Positions 39,927 to 50,756 of a stretch of DNA of 64,000 nt are shown here, piece after piece. Location: contig JALCQC010000010.1 of NCBI GenBank assembly GCA_022650895.1, positions 1 to 64,000 on the forward strand. Reading direction: 5' to 3'. Each line of letters opens with the position of its first letter. The first letter of the stretch is position 1. The position numbers and the translations under genes are program-made. A model generated the notes under the pieces. It was given only the letters and a program-made list of their open reading frames with translations. It made no database searches and had not been told where the DNA came from. Source of the DNA: Bifidobacteriaceae bacterium (lineage in GTDB: Bacteria; Actinomycetota; Actinomycetes; Actinomycetales; Bifidobacteriaceae).

Positions 39927-40632
39927 TTGGAAGAGGTGGGAGGGGTGGTGATGGTGCCGTCTCGTGTGGTGATGAAAATCTTGTGGTGGCTGGGGTTACT
40001 TGGTTTTGCTCTTCCACTTACTGTGCCTGCCGGGCTGCTTCCGTATGCAGGACCTGTTGCGGTGACGAATAGTTTGGTGATGGACGTCCCCTCTCTTGTG
40101 GTGATTGCCGGCTGGATTCTTGGAATTGCCTGCTGGGTAGCTTGGCTCGTAATTGCTTGGGTTGTGCGCAGGCGCGCGGCGAAGGCAGCCGTTTCGAGTG
40201 AAGTGGCAGTGACGAGTTCGGGTGGACCGGTCTTTAAGCTCGCGGATCTTGCGTGTTTTGCGCTGGTTGCGCATGGGGTTTGCGGCGGTGGTCGTCGCTG
40301 CGAGTGTGCTGGTGAGTCTGGGGTATTTCGCTCTTTTCGCTGATCGTTACCATGTGCTGCGTCCGTCGAGCGCGGGCGGTTGCAGCGTTGTTGTCGAGGT
40401 GGATGGCGGCGCGTGGTTCGACACCTTCGGTAACGTGTATTTGATGAGGCCGGATTCACGCGTGCTGACGGATACCGGTGGTAGCTGGTCGGTCAGCAAT
40501 AACTCAGTGGCGGATCCGATTGAAGAGGGTACGTGGTCGCTGCGCTGGGACCACAAAACCGCGAACCTGAGTATATGGGCCACGGACCGAATCTATGATT
40601 ACTCTCCCAAGCCCATTGTGTGCCCCGAGTAA
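39927..40632 (+). pseudogene. frame-disrupted tandem copy of the membrane protein at 40778-41611
   Basis: N-terminal half (39927-40343: VVMVPSRVVMKILWWLG...AWVVRRRAAKAAVSSEV) and C-terminal half (40222-40632: ILRVLRWLRMGFAAVVVA...GTWSLRWDHKTANLSIW...KPIVCPE) match the two halves of the downstream gene. They lie in different frames and the linker is missing. Confidence 0.75.
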
Positions 40633-40777: not shown

Positions 40778-41611
40778 GTGGAACGCATAACCCCGGAGGG
40801 GGTGGTGATGGTGCCGTCTCGTGTGGTGATGAAAATCTTGTGGTGGCTAGGGTTGTGTGCTGTTGCTTTTTCTTTTGTGGTCTCTACTGGGCTGCTTCCG
40901 CATTTCAATCCTGCTGCTCCCAGCCCTGTTGTAATGACGGGTAGTTTGGTGATGGATGCCACGGCTCTTGTTGTGATTGCCAGTTGGGTCGTGGGAATCT
41001 TGTGTTGGGTGGTTTGGGGCATTGTTGCCTGGGTTGTGCGCAGGCGTGCGGCGAAGGCAGCCGTTTCGAGTGAAGTGGCTGCAACGAGCTCGGGTAGCGC
41101 GGCTGCGGCAAGTACAGGTAGCGCTCTTACGCCGAGTACTGTCGAGGAAGACGTTTCGGTCAACGCGTCCGCAGCGGGCTCGGTTCTTTTGGACAGCGCC
41201 TTGGTAGCAGGGTCTCTGAAGTCGTTAGTTTTGCGTGTTTTGCGCTGGTTGCGTGTGGGGTTTGCGGCGGTGGTCGTCGCCCTGAGCATGTTGATGAGTT
41301 TGCTGTGCCTGTCTATGTCTGATAACTACCATGTGCTGCGTCCGTCGAGTGCGGGCGGTTGCAGCATCGTCGTCTCGTATTCTGCGGGCTTATGGGACGC
41401 TGGCGGGTATGTGTATTTGATGAGGTCGGATTCACGAGCGCTGACGGATACCGGTGGTAGCTGGTCAGTTAGCAATGATCCGGGGTCGGATCCGATTGAG
41501 GAGGGTACGTGGTCGCTGCGCTGGAACCATGAAACCGCACAATTGAATATTTGGTCAACCGCCCCGATTGGTTATTTTGACTGGCCCAAGCCCATTGTGT
41601 GCCCCGAGTAA
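40778..41611 (+). CDS. hypothetical membrane protein, intact tandem paralog
   Basis: Single ORF collinear with both halves of the upstream copy. Three hydrophobic segments and an extracytoplasmic C-terminal domain ending in KPIVCPE. Confidence 0.75.
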   Translation: MERITPEGVVMVPSRVVMKILWWLGLCAVAFSFVVSTGLLPHFNPAAPSPVVMTGSLVMDATALVVIASWVVGILCWVVWGIVAWVVRRRAAKAAVSSEVAATSSGSAAAASTGSALTPSTVEEDVSVNASAAGSVLLDSALVAGSLKSLVLRVLRWLRVGFAAVVVALSMLMSLLCLSMSDNYHVLRPSSAGGCSIVVSYSAGLWDAGGYVYLMRSDSRALTDTGGSWSVSNDPGSDPIEEGTWSLRWNHETAQLNIWSTAPIGYFDWPKPIVCPE

Positions 41612-44507: not shown

Positions 44508-46955
44508 GTGAGCGACAAAGTCATCACTCAACAGTTCAAAGATGAGATTATCGCAGCGCTGCGTTATTCCCGTGGCGTCACTCCCGAGGAAGCGGATGTC
44601 GCCGATGTCTACGTGGCGGCTTCGACCGCCGTGCGCAACCGTCTGGCTGACAAGTGGATCGAAACGCGTGAAGATACCCTTCGGGGCACCACCAAGGCCG
44701 TCGGTTATCTCAGTGCCGAGTTCCTTTTGGGAACCCAGCTTCCCAACGCCGTGCTCAATGCCGGTCTGACGGAGGAGTTCGACGCGGCCATCGCCGAGCT
44801 GGGCTTCGATCCTCGCGCAGTGGAAGACGCCGAATACGAGCCAGGACTGGGCAACGGCGGTCTCGGCCGCCTCGCCGCCTGCTTCGTCGATTCGTTGGCG
44901 ACGTTGGCCGTTCCGGCAATCGGCTATGGAATTCGTTATGAGTACGGGATTTTCCGTCAGGAATTCGGCCAGGACGGTTCTCAGGTGGAGACACCGGACT
45001 ACTGGCTGAAGAACGGCAACCCGTGGGAACAGGTCGATTACCGCCGCGAGCAGAAGGTCAGCTTCGGCGGAAAGGTCGTTGAGAAAGACGGAAAGCGCGT
45101 GTGGGAACCCGAGTGGTCAGTTCGCGCGCTTCCCTACGATTACTTGGTTCCAGGCTATGGTTCGGGCCGCGTGAATACGCTGCGTCTGTGGTCGGCGAAG
45201 GCGGAGGATGAATTCGATCTCCTCACCTTCAACAAGTCCGAGTACGACGAAGCCGTCAAGCGCCAGACCAGGGCCGAAAACATCTCCAAGGTTCTCTACC
45301 CCGAGGATTCCACCCTCGTTGGCAAGCAGCTGCGCCTTGAGCAGCAGTATTTCTTCACTGCGGCCTCGCTGGCGGACACCATTTCGCTGTTCTATCCAGG
45401 CGAGGAACACCCCGATCTCACCACGCTGCCGAGCAAGATCACGTTCCAGCTCAACGACACCCACCCGGTGATCGCCATCCCCGAGCTCATGCGCATCATG
45501 ATCGACCAGTACGGCTATGACTGGTCCACCGCGTGGAACACCACCAAGCAGGTCTTCAACTACACCTGCCACACCCTGCTGCCCGAGGCACTCGAGGTAT
45601 GGCCCGCGTCGCTGCTGGGCGGTCTGTTGCCACGTCACCTTGAGATCATCCAGAAGATCAGCGATATCGCCGCAGCCGACGAAGTCGAACGGGGCGCCAA
45701 CGCCGCCACAGTGGACGCCATGCGCGTTCTCTCCAACGGCCACGACCCCCAGGTTCGCATGGCATATCTCGCAACGGTTGCCGGCGGACACGTCAACGGC
45801 GTTGCTCAGCTGCACTCCGACCTGCTGAAGGCCAGCGTCCTCAAGGACTTCGCCGACGTCTACCCCGACAAGTTCACCAACGTGACCAACGGTGTGACGC
45901 CTCGCCGCTTCGTGCGTCTGGCAAACCCGCGCCTCAGCAGCCTCATCACCGAGGGCCTGGGCACGGACACATGGCTGAACGATCTCGACAAGCTCTCGGG
46001 CCTCGAGAAGCTCGCTTCCGACGACGCCTTCGTGGATCGCTTCGCACAGGTCAAGAAGGCCAACAAGGCCGACTTCGCCGCATGGGCCAAGCAGAAGTAT
46101 GGATACGAGATCGACCCGAACTCCATGTTCAACACCATGATCAAGCGTTTGCACGAGTACAAGCGCCAGTCCATGAAGATTCTGCAGGTCATCGCCCAGT
46201 ACGCCGACATCAAGTCCGGGAAGATCGATGTGGACTCCGATGCCTTCGTACCGCGCACGGTCATCTTCGGTGCGAAGTCCGCTCCGGGCTATGCGCTTGC
46301 CAAGGAGACCATCAAGCTCATCAACAACGTGGCGCGCGTCATCAACAACGATCCGGACGTCAAGGGCAAGCTGCGCGTCGTGTTCCCGCCGAACTACAAC
46401 GTGACGGTGGCTCAGCACATCATCCCCGCCACCGACCTTGACGAGCAGATCTCGCTGGCCGGCAAGGAGGCGTCGGGCACCTCCAACATGAAGTTCGCCC
46501 TCAACGGCTCACTCACCGTTGGCACGCTTGACGGCGCGAATGTTGAAATCCGCAACCGCGTGGGTGCCGACAACTTCTTCCTCTTCGGCATGGAGGTTTC
46601 CGAGGTCGAGGAGCTCGAAGCCGCAGGCTACAACCCCCGCAAGTACTACGAGGAGGATGCGCAGCTCAAGAACGCGATCGACATGATCGTGTCCGGCGTG
46701 TTCTCCGAGGGGCACAAGGGCGCGTTCTCCATGTTCACCGACGACCTTCTCCACCATGATCGCTTCATGGCACTCGCTGACTTCCGCGCCTACATGGACG
46801 TTCAGGCCGGCATCGAGGCACAGTTCAAGGACGGGCACGAGTGGGCACGCAAGGCGCTGCTCAACGTCTCGCGCTCCGGCTTCTTCAGCTCTGACCGCTC
46901 GATTCGTGATTACCTCGAGCGCGTATGGCACACGGAGGGACTGTCGGCTCGCTGA
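44508..46955 (+). CDS. glgP: glycogen/maltodextrin phosphorylase
   Basis: EPGLGNGGLGRLAACFVDS, TFQLNDTHPVIAIPELMR, KRLHEYKRQSMKILQVIAQYADI, GKEASGTSNMKFALNGSLTVGTLDGANVEI. Confidence 0.97.
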   Translation: MSDKVITQQFKDEIIAALRYSRGVTPEEADVADVYVAASTAVRNRLADKWIETREDTLRGTTKAVGYLSAEFLLGTQLPNAVLNAGLTEEFDAAIAELGFDPRAVEDAEYEPGLGNGGLGRLAACFVDSLATLAVPAIGYGIRYEYGIFRQEFGQDGSQVETPDYWLKNGNPWEQVDYRREQKVSFGGKVVEKDGKRVWEPEWSVRALPYDYLVPGYGSGRVNTLRLWSAKAEDEFDLLTFNKSEYDEAVKRQTRAENISKVLYPEDSTLVGKQLRLEQQYFFTAASLADTISLFYPGEEHPDLTTLPSKITFQLNDTHPVIAIPELMRIMIDQYGYDWSTAWNTTKQVFNYTCHTLLPEALEVWPASLLGGLLPRHLEIIQKISDIAAADEVERGANAATVDAMRVLSNGHDPQVRMAYLATVAGGHVNGVAQLHSDLLKASVLKDFADVYPDKFTNVTNGVTPRRFVRLANPRLSSLITEGLGTDTWLNDLDKLSGLEKLASDDAFVDRFAQVKKANKADFAAWAKQKYGYEIDPNSMFNTMIKRLHEYKRQSMKILQVIAQYADIKSGKIDVDSDAFVPRTVIFGAKSAPGYALAKETIKLINNVARVINNDPDVKGKLRVVFPPNYNVTVAQHIIPATDLDEQISLAGKEASGTSNMKFALNGSLTVGTLDGANVEIRNRVGADNFFLFGMEVSEVEELEAAGYNPRKYYEEDAQLKNAIDMIVSGVFSEGHKGAFSMFTDDLLHHDRFMALADFRAYMDVQAGIEAQFKDGHEWARKALLNVSRSGFFSSDRSIRDYLERVWHTEGLSAR

Positions 46956-47000: not shown

Positions 47001-47040
47001 ACGGTGGAAAGCGTTTTCGAGCGCTTTCCACCGTTCTTTA
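47001..47040 (+). terminator. Rho-independent terminator of glgP
   Basis: ACGGTGGAAAGCG-TTTTCGAG-CGCTTTCCACCGT followed by TCTTT. Confidence 0.85.
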
Positions 47041-47134: not shown

Positions 47135-48001
47135 CTAGAGCCCGAGCCGCCAGCCTGCGATGTCGCTGACGTCGAAAGGCGCCTCGACGGATTTCCTGTA
47201 GATCTTTTCGTACATGGCCCTGCGTTGTGCGTTGTCGGCTTTCAGCATGTTTCTGCTGTTCTCCGCCACCGACTTGTGCGGATCCGGGAAGATGGGGTCA
47301 AGCACATGGACGACGTAGCGGGTGTGGTTGAACTCGTCGTTGTTCCGTTCGGGAATCCCAGTGTCGATGATTTCAGTGAAGCACGAGATTACGGGGACGC
47401 CGGCTTGGGCTGCGAAATCGTAGGCACCGTGCTTGCCGGGGCGCGGACGTCGGTAGTTGAACCACATCTCCTCTTCGGGGTAGATGAGGATGAAATGACC
47501 CTGCCTGAGTGTGGAGTCGATGATCTGCAGAAAGCGTCCGCTGAGATAGGCACGGTCCTTGGTGATGGGAATCGTGTCGAAATAGCGCATGAAATAGCCG
47601 ATGAACCCCTTCATGGCGAGGTTCGTGTCCTGGCTGACAGCGAAGGTGCGGCGCTTGCCGGCCTTGCGCATGGTCGTAAGAACGGTCAGCACCTCGATGG
47701 GGTTGAAGTGGTTGGAGGTGACGATGGCGCCCGTTCGGATGCCCTTGAGCTTTTCGAGACCGATGTAGGTGGTCGAGGTGTTCATGCAGCGCGCGAACAC
47801 ATAGACCGCATGACGTGCGACCCAATTGTTGAACCGGTATCTGAAGGTGTGCATCGAATCAAGATGGTGACGCACATAGGTGATCTTTCCCGCTTTGTTG
47901 AGATGCGGGTCGCCCACCTCGACCTTCACATTGAGTTTGCCCTCCTCAACGGCTTTCTCGATGTTTCGGACCACCTGCCGCTTGCTGCCGCCGATGATCA
48001 T
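47135..48001 (-). CDS. lysophospholipid acyltransferase-like (PlsC family) protein, NHx4E variant
   Basis: IVTSNHFNPIEVLTVLT and LIYPEEEMWFNYRRPRPGKHGAYDFAAQAGVPVI. Overlaps the upstream gene by 4 nt. Confidence 0.82.
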   Translation of the reverse strand: MIIGGSKRQVVRNIEKAVEEGKLNVKVEVGDPHLNKAGKITYVRHHLDSMHTFRYRFNNWVARHAVYVFARCMNTSTTYIGLEKLKGIRTGAIVTSNHFNPIEVLTVLTTMRKAGKRRTFAVSQDTNLAMKGFIGYFMRYFDTIPITKDRAYLSGRFLQIIDSTLRQGHFILIYPEEEMWFNYRRPRPGKHGAYDFAAQAGVPVISCFTEIIDTGIPERNNDEFNHTRYVVHVLDPIFPDPHKSVAENSRNMLKADNAQRRAMYEKIYRKSVEAPFDVSDIAGWRLGL

Positions 48002-48963
48002 AGGGTCACCCTCACACCGTTCCTGGCGAGCTTGCTGAAAGTCACGGGGTTTTGGGGGATCTGCGCGGCCTGCCTGATGAGTCCCTCCCGTTTCATGGCG
48101 TCCGAGAGCTTCTGATCCTGGGTGAAGCTGTTGAGGCCGTCGACGAGCTTGGAGTAGTAGGGGCTCCTCTCGGCATAATCCCAGAAGTAGTCCGCATTCG
48201 GCGCATCACGGTAGTTCCACGGCTTGCCGAAGAGGTTGTAGTGGATGATCTTGGGATCGTGCGTGAGCGCCTCGCCCTCGGCCATCATGGTGTTCCACTC
48301 CGGGCCGAGCTTGAGGATCCTGTCATGGCAGATGACGTTGAGATAGTCCTGATCCGCCGCGATGGACTGCACGTGGTAGGTGGTGAGGAGACCGCTGAAG
48401 AAGGACGCGAAATGCTGCTCCCGCAGCTCTCTGAGGTTCATCACGAGCACGCCTGAATTCACATAGTCGTGGACGGGGAATCCCAGCGCGTCGGTGACGT
48501 AGTCGGAGGTTTCCGGGTGCCCGGAGATGAAGTTGTCGTGCACCGCCGCGACAAGGTTGTCGTTGAGATCGAGGGCATAGAGCTCGGCGATGTCGGTAGT
48601 GATGACGGTGTCAGCATCGATGTAGAGCGCCTTGTCGAGCTGGGGGAACATCTCGGCGATGAAGAGACGGTAGTAGATGGTCATGGTGACGTAGTCGAAG
48701 CGCAGCTTGTTCTTGTCCGTCTGGACCGTTTTCAGGTGCTCCTGGTCGATGGGGAAGAACCTGATGTGGACAGTGTCCGTTGCCATGCTTTGCAGCCTCT
48801 GCCGGGTCTCCTCCGTCACGTCATGGTAGAGAACGGTGACGTCGTACAGGTTCCCTGCGCTCGCGTTTTCGATGAGGGATTCGAGCGAGACCGAAAGGTA
48901 GGGAGCGTAGCCGTCGTCCGTTGCGAAAAAGACGGGAATAACGTGTTGAGTCGTGGTGGTCAC
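47998..48963 (-). CDS. glycosyltransferase family 8
   Basis: VIPVFFATDDGYAPYLSVSLESLIENAS, KALYIDADTVITTDIAELYALDL, YVNSGVLVMNLRELRE. GTG start overlaps the upstream stop (GTGA). Confidence 0.9.
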   Translation of the reverse strand: MTTTTQHVIPVFFATDDGYAPYLSVSLESLIENASAGNLYDVTVLYHDVTEETRQRLQSMATDTVHIRFFPIDQEHLKTVQTDKNKLRFDYVTMTIYYRLFIAEMFPQLDKALYIDADTVITTDIAELYALDLNDNLVAAVHDNFISGHPETSDYVTDALGFPVHDYVNSGVLVMNLRELREQHFASFFSGLLTTYHVQSIAADQDYLNVICHDRILKLGPEWNTMMAEGEALTHDPKIIHYNLFGKPWNYRDAPNADYFWDYAERSPYYSKLVDGLNSFTQDQKLSDAMKREGLIRQAAQIPQNPVTFSKLARNGVRVTL

Positions 48964-49796
48964 TGTGCGAGATCCATTTCTGTGAGAAGTGATTGATAAC
49001 GGTTGAGAAGGTCGTCGTACTCGTGCAGTCCCAGTTCGGAGTGCACCTTTTCCACGTTCCAGGGCTTTACCGTCACGGTGTGGACGGTCGGCCAGAAGCG
49101 GAAGCTCGTGGTGAAGTGTTGGAAAACAGTGTCTGGCTGCAGCCTGTGCTGTTCGTTGAACCTCTCCGGCACGATTTTCTTGGCGGACGCCAGCTTGTTG
49201 AGGGCCGATTGATCGGGCATGAAGAGTTTTTTGCTGCTGCACAGGTCCCTGCACTTGCGAAACAGCTCGGTCCGCTTGATCTCCGCCATGTTCAACAGCA
49301 GGAGTCCGGAGTTGAGGTAGTCGAGTCCCCACTTCAGATAGTTCTCTTTGAAGAACCACTTGCCGTAGTAGTCCAGTACGCCGGCGATCTCCATGCCCTC
49401 CATGTCCTGGTGGTAGAAGGCGGTGCAATCCTGTCTGCAGACCACGTCCGTGTCCATGTACAGCAGACGATCCGGCAGGTCCACAAGGTCGGCGTAAAGC
49501 CTCAGCATGCAGTACGGCGTGAAGAAGGTGTCTATGTTCGCTGTGGGAGGGTGGGCAAGGAATTCGCTGGTGACGTCGATTCGCTTCACTGAACTCTCCG
49601 GATTGCTCTTCTTCACGAGAGAATCGAGGAAGTCCACCTGCGATTGTGGTACTGGCGAGAAGGCCTTTTCCTTGGTAGAGATCGTTGCGGTGAGAACATA
49701 CACATGCAGTGGCTCGCGCACGTTGTCCGTGAGAGAGAGGATGGAGATGAGCAGGCCGTCCTTCATGGCGGAGTCACCGCTGTAGAGAATGTTCAT
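48960..49796 (-). CDS. glycosyltransferase family 8
   Basis: MNILYSGDSAMKDGLLISILSLTDN, RLLYMDTDVVCRQDCTAFY, YLNSGLLLLNMAEIKR. Confidence 0.9.
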   Translation of the reverse strand: MNILYSGDSAMKDGLLISILSLTDNVREPLHVYVLTATISTKEKAFSPVPQSQVDFLDSLVKKSNPESSVKRIDVTSEFLAHPPTANIDTFFTPYCMLRLYADLVDLPDRLLYMDTDVVCRQDCTAFYHQDMEGMEIAGVLDYYGKWFFKENYLKWGLDYLNSGLLLLNMAEIKRTELFRKCRDLCSSKKLFMPDQSALNKLASAKKIVPERFNEQHRLQPDTVFQHFTTSFRFWPTVHTVTVKPWNVEKVHSELGLHEYDDLLNRYQSLLTEMDLAQ

Positions 49797-50560
49797 GAAT
49801 CCTTCTTCCTATACTGCTGGTATTCATAGGTGGAAGCCGAGCTTCTTCTCTGCATAACCGCAAAAATCTGATCTCTGAGGGCGCGCCGCTGCCGTTCCTC
49901 GTCAAGGGAGGGATCTGGGTAAAAGGGGCCGTCAATGAACACGGTGACGCGTGGGCGCTTGCCGAACCGGCGCTGCTGGTAGGTGACGGTGGAAGCGAAG
50001 GCCGGCACCCCGTAGCGAGGTGGGTACTTGAAGGAGCGATCCGGGAACGGCCTGATCTTGGTGTAGTACGGCCAGACGTGCGCCTCGGGGTAGATGGCGA
50101 TGGCGGCATGCTGTTCCACCAGCTGTGCCATGGCCTGCTTGAAGGCCACGCTCTGCCCCTTGGTGTGAGGGACGGCAAGCATGTCGCAGTGGCGCAGAAT
50201 AAGGCCGATCACCGGAATTCCGAAATTGGCGGGACTCATGATGGCGGAAACCTTGTGCGGGTAATTCAGCAACACCGTGAGCGCTATGTCTCCCTGGGGA
50301 AGGGTGTGGTTTCCATAGATGAAGGAGGCCTCGGAGGCGTGCTTTTTCAGCGAGGCGGCATCCACGATGCGAAGGTGGAGAACGGCATGGGCGTATACCC
50401 ACGAAACGACGAAGAAGATGAAGTAGAAAATATTGAAGAAGAGAGAGTGAAGAACGCCGTGACGCACCCAGATGTGGTGCGGTGGCAGGTGGTAGCTCTG
50501 GTTATGAGAGGTGACGAAATCGTCATTCACGGACTCATAAATATGCGCGCGTTGTCCCAT
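49793..50560 (-). CDS. lysophospholipid acyltransferase-like (PlsC family) protein
   Basis: FIYGNHTLPQGDIALTVLL, IAIYPEAHVWPYYTKIRPFPDRSFKYPPRYGVPAFAS. N-terminal TM. Overlaps the next gene by ATGA. Confidence 0.82.
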   Translation of the reverse strand: MGQRAHIYESVNDDFVTSHNQSYHLPPHHIWVRHGVLHSLFFNIFYFIFFVVSWVYAHAVLHLRIVDAASLKKHASEASFIYGNHTLPQGDIALTVLLNYPHKVSAIMSPANFGIPVIGLILRHCDMLAVPHTKGQSVAFKQAMAQLVEQHAAIAIYPEAHVWPYYTKIRPFPDRSFKYPPRYGVPAFASTVTYQQRRFGKRPRVTVFIDGPFYPDPSLDEERQRRALRDQIFAVMQRRSSASTYEYQQYRKKDS

Positions 50561-50720: not shown

Positions 50721-50756
50721 CGATGGGGCCGGTCCCTTGTAGGACCGGCCCCATCG
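50721..50756 (-). terminator. long perfect hairpin (15-bp stem) downstream of the 50781-51047 gene
   Basis: CGATGGGGCCGGTCC-CTTGTA-GGACCGGCCCCATCG. The U-tract is weak. Confidence 0.55.

Follow-up and report, generated by a model that had tools for sequence, protein, structure and literature searches.

The horA gene encodes the hop-resistance pump of beer-spoiling lactobacilli and pediococci. It is carried by plasmid pPECL-8, where four of the five genes around it are phospholipid or cell-wall genes; by RNA-seq, each of these four was transcribed more than 3-fold above horA in beer, and the horA-flanking genes have some of the highest transcript levels on the plasmid under this condition (PMC3765258). 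The proteins they encode have been termed LPLAT and GT8 proteins (PMC4394401), and neither PMC3765258 nor PMC4394401 assigns a biochemical role to the four genes.

The mycobacterial PIM pathway (PimA/PimB' with PatA) combines glycosyltransferases with sugar acylation by an LPLAT-fold enzyme. In Listeria, the lmo2555/lmo2554 enzymes act on ready-made diacylglycerol. These are the two glycosyltransferases that work in sequence on a membrane glycolipid in GT4-type synthesis of the lipoteichoic acid anchor (PMC2764115), and two GT4 enzymes also take part in anchor glycolipid synthesis in Lactobacillus gasseri (PMC8401598).

The locus described here lies in the window, by which we mean the whole 64,000-nucleotide stretch of Bifidobacteriaceae DNA that was analyzed, and consists of four minus-strand genes spanning 50560-47135. 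Gene A (49793-50560, 255 amino acids) encodes an LPLAT-superfamily acyltransferase with the motifs NHT(Q/L)xxGD (HX5D) and YPEAHVWP. It is followed by gene B (48960-49796, 278 amino acids), encoding a GT8 glycosyltransferase with DxD (D115/D117), NSG, DQ and KPW motifs, by gene C (47998-48963, 321 amino acids, GTG start), encoding a second GT8 glycosyltransferase with DxD (D116/D118), NSG, DQ and HxNLFxKPW, and by gene D (47135-48001, 288 amino acids), encoding a second LPLAT-superfamily acyltransferase with NHFNPIE (HX4E) and YPEEEMWFNY. Reading of the open reading frames and junctions confirmed the positions given in a first-pass annotation of this DNA, as well as its claim of a 4-nt overlap at all three junctions. 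These are stop-start overlaps on the minus strand, with ATGA between A and B (49793-49796), GTGA between B and C (48960-48963) and ATGA between C and D (47998-48001).

From the overlaps and the spacing we infer that A, B, C and D are co-transcribed. A terminator scan identified a terminator-like hairpin (13 pairs, then CTTTTC) at 47001-47034 on the minus strand, 100 nt beyond D, which is common to D and the convergent glycogen phosphorylase gene (44508-46955, plus strand). A second, G+C-rich hairpin at 50722-50755 (minus strand), between a small membrane-protein ORF (51047-50781, minus strand) and gene A, was seen by eye, was absent from the terminator-scan output, and is read as the putative upstream limit of the four-gene unit. 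A sigma-70 scan, a weak test in an actinobacterial host, returned no promoter. Elsewhere in the window, a small membrane-protein gene looks tandemly duplicated on the plus strand (39927-40632 and 40778-41611), with the stretches MKILWWLGL, RVLRWLR and YHVLRPSSAGGCS present in both copies.

The LPLAT-GT8-GT8-LPLAT make-up was borne out by Pfam for B, C and D and by family alignment and fold for A. The first-pass annotation had proposed profile searches with PF01553 and PF01501, and these placed B, C and D above the Pfam cut-offs but not A. B and C scored 49.8 and 160.8 bits against PF01501 (cut-off 24.3 bits) and belong to GT8, while D scored 46.5 bits against PF01553 (cut-off 23 bits). Although single-protein searches with A returned no match in Pfam or the PDB, PF01553 was matched by 23 of 30 proteins in its family. 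The AlphaFold2 model of A (pLDDT 91.7) matched only LPLAT-superfamily structures at E <= 0.001 (LpxM, PlsC, PatA and GPAT1), so that family and fold both place A in the LPLAT (PlsC-like) superfamily, where PF01553 places D. The D profile had no sequence match in the PDB, and the D model (pLDDT 87.4) was nearest in fold to PlsC (5kym). Alignments behind the models were made without plasmid-record rows. Because the TM-scores were modest (0.4-0.6), the match of D to PlsC is read at the level of the superfamily.

Both GT8 families, B and C, have the DxD metal/UDP-sugar motif, NSG, DQ and KPW invariant or nearly so. Their nearest solved relatives are LgtC and WbbM, which act on lipid-linked saccharides, a kinship that does not fix the acceptor of B and C. 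Long GT8-containing ORFs of Bifidobacterium proper are of a different class and were set aside.

Both acyltransferases had been described as deviating from the NHx4D box, and a comparison of 55 A and 70 D sequences upheld this for A. In family A, HX5D is invariant and NHTxxxGD occurs in most members, so the departure from the HX4D catalytic box is family-wide and no local oddity of the window gene. In contrast, most of the 70 D relatives have HX4D and some have HX4E, which makes the HX4E of the window's D a trivial, minor variant. A departure from the HX4D charge relay is also seen in PatA and HtrB-type enzymes, and PatA shows that an LPLAT-fold enzyme can acylate a sugar hydroxyl (PMC4792965). 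By analogy with PatA, the HX5D of family A may likewise depart from the charge relay. The structural alignment of A with PatA has 12-13% identity, and the PIM pathway differs from the quartet in its glycosyltransferase family and in its inositol phospholipid acceptor.

The quartet resembles the PlsX/PlsY/PlsC pathway in the PlsC fold of D and in the two acyl transfers expected of it, but no PlsX or PlsY partner lies beside the set, two GT8 genes are found instead, and the motifs are different. The nearness of D to PlsC by fold, and the place of both A and D in a superfamily of glycerolipid acyltransferases, would suit a reading in which A and D are spare glycerol-3-phosphate or lysophosphatidic acid (LPA) acyltransferases for ordinary phospholipids, the GT8 enzymes act elsewhere, and the linkage reflects joint transfer. 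We regard this as improbable: families A and D have fixed motifs of their own, unlike those of PlsC, the four genes are kept together, or elsewhere in the same genome, over very divergent lineages, and the CDP-alcohol phosphotransferases required for phospholipids were not found in six of the seven Saccharibacteria carriers considered below.

When plasmids were searched with D by tblastn, the matches were mainly to brewery plasmids. S. paracollinoides, L. brevis, P. claussenii pPECL-8 and F. lindneri have the order B, horA (opposite strand), A, C, D. All four orthologues lie in one block around horA (E 1e-53 to 1e-98), and in the two plasmids compared they were 51% (B), 38.5% (A), 47% (C) and 37% (D) identical to the window proteins. 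The same four gene families are thus found in one block in both settings. However, the brewery block is plasmid-borne, with horA on the other strand between the first GT8 (B) and the first LPLAT (A), whereas the window genes are contiguous, overlapping and without horA, and so represent the same enzyme set but not a horA cluster. The earlier statement that no cluster of this composition is known is wrong in one sense, because the same four genes are the conserved horA flank of beer-spoilage plasmids (PMC3765258, PMC4394401). Searches of the literature on glycolipid clusters with GT8 enzymes and acyltransferases, on Saccharibacteria lipid genes and on RF39 yielded no account of the quartet.

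Scanning genome contigs with D alone yielded 63 loci, of which 58 had B, 59 had C and 51 had A within 10 kb of D. B, C and D occurred together in 56 loci and all four genes within 10 kb in 49; the quartet is a real unit, beyond chance. It is carried by Bifidobacteriaceae, Lactobacillaceae, Clostridia, Bacilli and gut Saccharibacteria. The conservation that the first-pass annotation had proposed to look for reaches beyond bifidobacteria and Actinobacteria, with a gene order that varies by lineage: A-B-C-D in most Bifidobacteriaceae carriers, Lactobacillaceae, most Clostridia and one Roseburia plasmid, and B-C-D with a convergent A in Bacilli and most Saccharibacteria. Overlaps or short gaps at the junctions are common across loci. 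Ten genomes have no A next to D, and in seven of them a clear A is encoded at another place.

Two related genomes (L065 and L070) are without both A and B yet keep C and D. In three complete genomes of one Bifidobacteriaceae genus (g15; L132-L134, L007-L009), D, A and B lie together with C far off. The joint absence of A and B and the separation of C from D-A-B suggest that each GT8 enzyme is paired with one LPLAT enzyme, B-A and C-D.

Several loci differ in copy number or neighbors. One genome of genus g15 has a divergent pair of C genes, and two genomes of the window's family (L136 and L137, genus g2) carry C (GT8b) as a tandem pair flanked by B and D, with which the number of sugars may vary. 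In a group of Clostridia (L084, L086-L090, L092, L093, L098) a TetR regulator lies directly upstream of gene A, and the quartet may be inducible in this group. Some Saccharibacteria and Clostridia (L067, L081, L083, L038, L096) encode a PF03706 LPG_synthase_TM-type membrane protein, a possible lipid transporter, close to the quartet. A lasting link to one transporter was rejected, as neither HorA (brewery plasmids), ABC exporter pairs (four loci) nor the PF03706 protein (five loci) is constant, and no flippase was found as a constant partner among the recurring neighbors.

D was present in 9 of 189 Bifidobacteriaceae genomes, distributed over four genera, and in one of the three genomes of the window's genus; Aeriscardovia aeriphila (L037) is among the loci from this family. 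The nine Bifidobacteriaceae D proteins formed one clade in a quick tree (SH-aLRT 99), which falls within a group that also includes Lactobacillaceae and three Clostridia, and the B tree gave a similar group. This single clade suggests that the Bifidobacteriaceae probably acquired the genes once, with nearest kin in lactobacilli, followed by frequent loss or onward passing. Base composition offers no argument for recent transfer into this genome: the G+C content of the cluster (0.572) is that of the window (0.571), and its GC3 is ordinary. The quartet is a mobile enzyme set that has moved between lineages.

We consider it somewhat probable (roughly 0.6) that the quartet is one mobile, self-contained membrane-glycolipid pathway that handles two hexoses and two acyl chains in GT8-LPLAT pairs. 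We infer its donors, acceptors, reaction order, product and permeability role as follows. B and C, as retaining GT8 enzymes, would each transfer one hexose from a UDP-sugar, and D and A would each transfer one fatty acyl chain from an acyl thioester (acyl-ACP or acyl-CoA), in two GT8-LPLAT steps with C paired with D and B with A. The acyl chains might be placed on glycerol, as by PlsC-like relatives that use glycerol phosphates, or on sugar hydroxyls, as by PatA. The product would be a membrane glycolipid carrying two sugars and two acyl chains, probably a sugar-bearing membrane lipid so far undescribed, and it would lower the permeability of the membrane to weak acids and amphiphiles. In the window's Bifidobacteriaceae genome the acyl donor would probably be the host's own acyl-CoA or acyl-ACP. 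The GT4 systems would be comparable to this arrangement in their outcome, with two sequential glycosyltransferases on a membrane glycolipid, but are unlike it in starting from a preformed diacylglycerol acceptor, without dedicated acyltransferases or acyl-ACP supply genes.

Such supply genes adjoin the quartet at roughly half of the 63 loci; almost all of these are from Bacilli and Saccharibacteria that are poor in fatty-acid synthesis. There, an AMP-dependent PF00501 acyl ligase and a PF00550 ACP lie beside the set, usually joined by a PF01648 phosphopantetheinyl transferase, in varying orientations. A pathway that loads imported fatty acids onto ACP for use by A and D requires these activities.

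Gut Saccharibacteria are otherwise thought to be wholly dependent on host lipids. We searched seven carrier genomes from this group (MAGs of 0.4-0.9 Mb, completeness not given) with profiles for PlsY, FabH, PF01553 and CDP-alcohol phosphotransferase. PlsY and FabH were not found in any of the seven MAGs, in each of the seven the only PF01553-type proteins found were A and D, and CDP-alcohol phosphotransferases were not found in six. Only one of 288 genomes of the phylum (Patescibacteria) had a strong D, namely the search-centre genome itself. Because D is nearly absent from other Patescibacteria, the carrier Saccharibacteria appear to have gained a lipid pathway missing from most of the phylum. 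The Bifidobacteriaceae and Lactobacillaceae carriers have further PF01553 enzymes, so in these families the set may only modify existing lipids.

This last point bears on the main rival to a self-contained pathway, in which B and C would lengthen a glycosyl-diacylglycerol while A and D attach further acyl chains to its sugars; the resulting tri- or tetra-acyl lipid would anchor lipoteichoic acid or a lipoglycan. Glycolipid-anchored surface polymers occur in lactobacilli and bifidobacteria, where the further PF01553 enzymes would serve ordinary phospholipids, and the top fold matches of A include LpxM and the sugar-acylating PatA. Some Lactobacillus anchors also carry an extra acyl group on a hexose, for which, to our knowledge, no responsible enzyme is known. 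However, no LtaS-type gene was recognized among the recurring neighbors of the set. In six of the seven Saccharibacteria, moreover, PlsY, a CDP-alcohol phosphotransferase and another PF01553 LPLAT were not found, so there is no evident home-made diacylglycerol lipid to decorate. Anchor decoration could operate in lactobacilli and bifidobacteria but fits the Saccharibacteria less easily, and we give it a tentative place only.

The neighbors also speak to a reading in which a secreted polysaccharide or protein is acylated and glycosylated, which we think very unlikely. In other systems, serine-rich adhesins are substrates of GT8 enzymes, but no adhesin, SecA2, Wzx/Wzy or membrane O-acyltransferase was recognized among the recurring neighbors, and the linkage to an ACP and an acyl-AMP ligase points to lipid assembly in the cytosol. 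The first-pass annotation had left room for acylation of a glycan, and this option found no support, as no Wzx/Wzy-kind polymerase or flippase recurs beside the set. Its other proposal, a dedicated pathway for a small glycosylated and acylated envelope lipid, is well supported by the conservation of the quartet across phyla, by the acyl-ACP linkage and by A and D being the only LPLATs found in Saccharibacteria in which PlsY and FabH were not.

By sequence and gene neighborhood, then, the quartet appears to be a variant of glycolipid biosynthesis with unexpected ties to hop resistance and to acyl-ACP supply. A further, speculative step, which we rate as doubtful, is that the quartet with acyl-ACP synthetase and ACP makes up a full, phosphatidic-acid-independent pathway that turns imported fatty acids and UDP-sugars into a diacyl dihexosyl lipid, that gut Saccharibacteria acquired it, and that the same lipid made from horA plasmids confers resistance to hop acids. 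The horA-flanking genes, long seen by brewing microbiologists without an assigned role, gain a testable function from the proposed self-contained pathway. It also provides a four-enzyme hypothesis for a membrane lipid common to bifidobacterial relatives, lactobacilli, clostridia and small-genome gut Bacilli, and it makes testable whether some gut Saccharibacteria assemble their own lipid from imported fatty acids.
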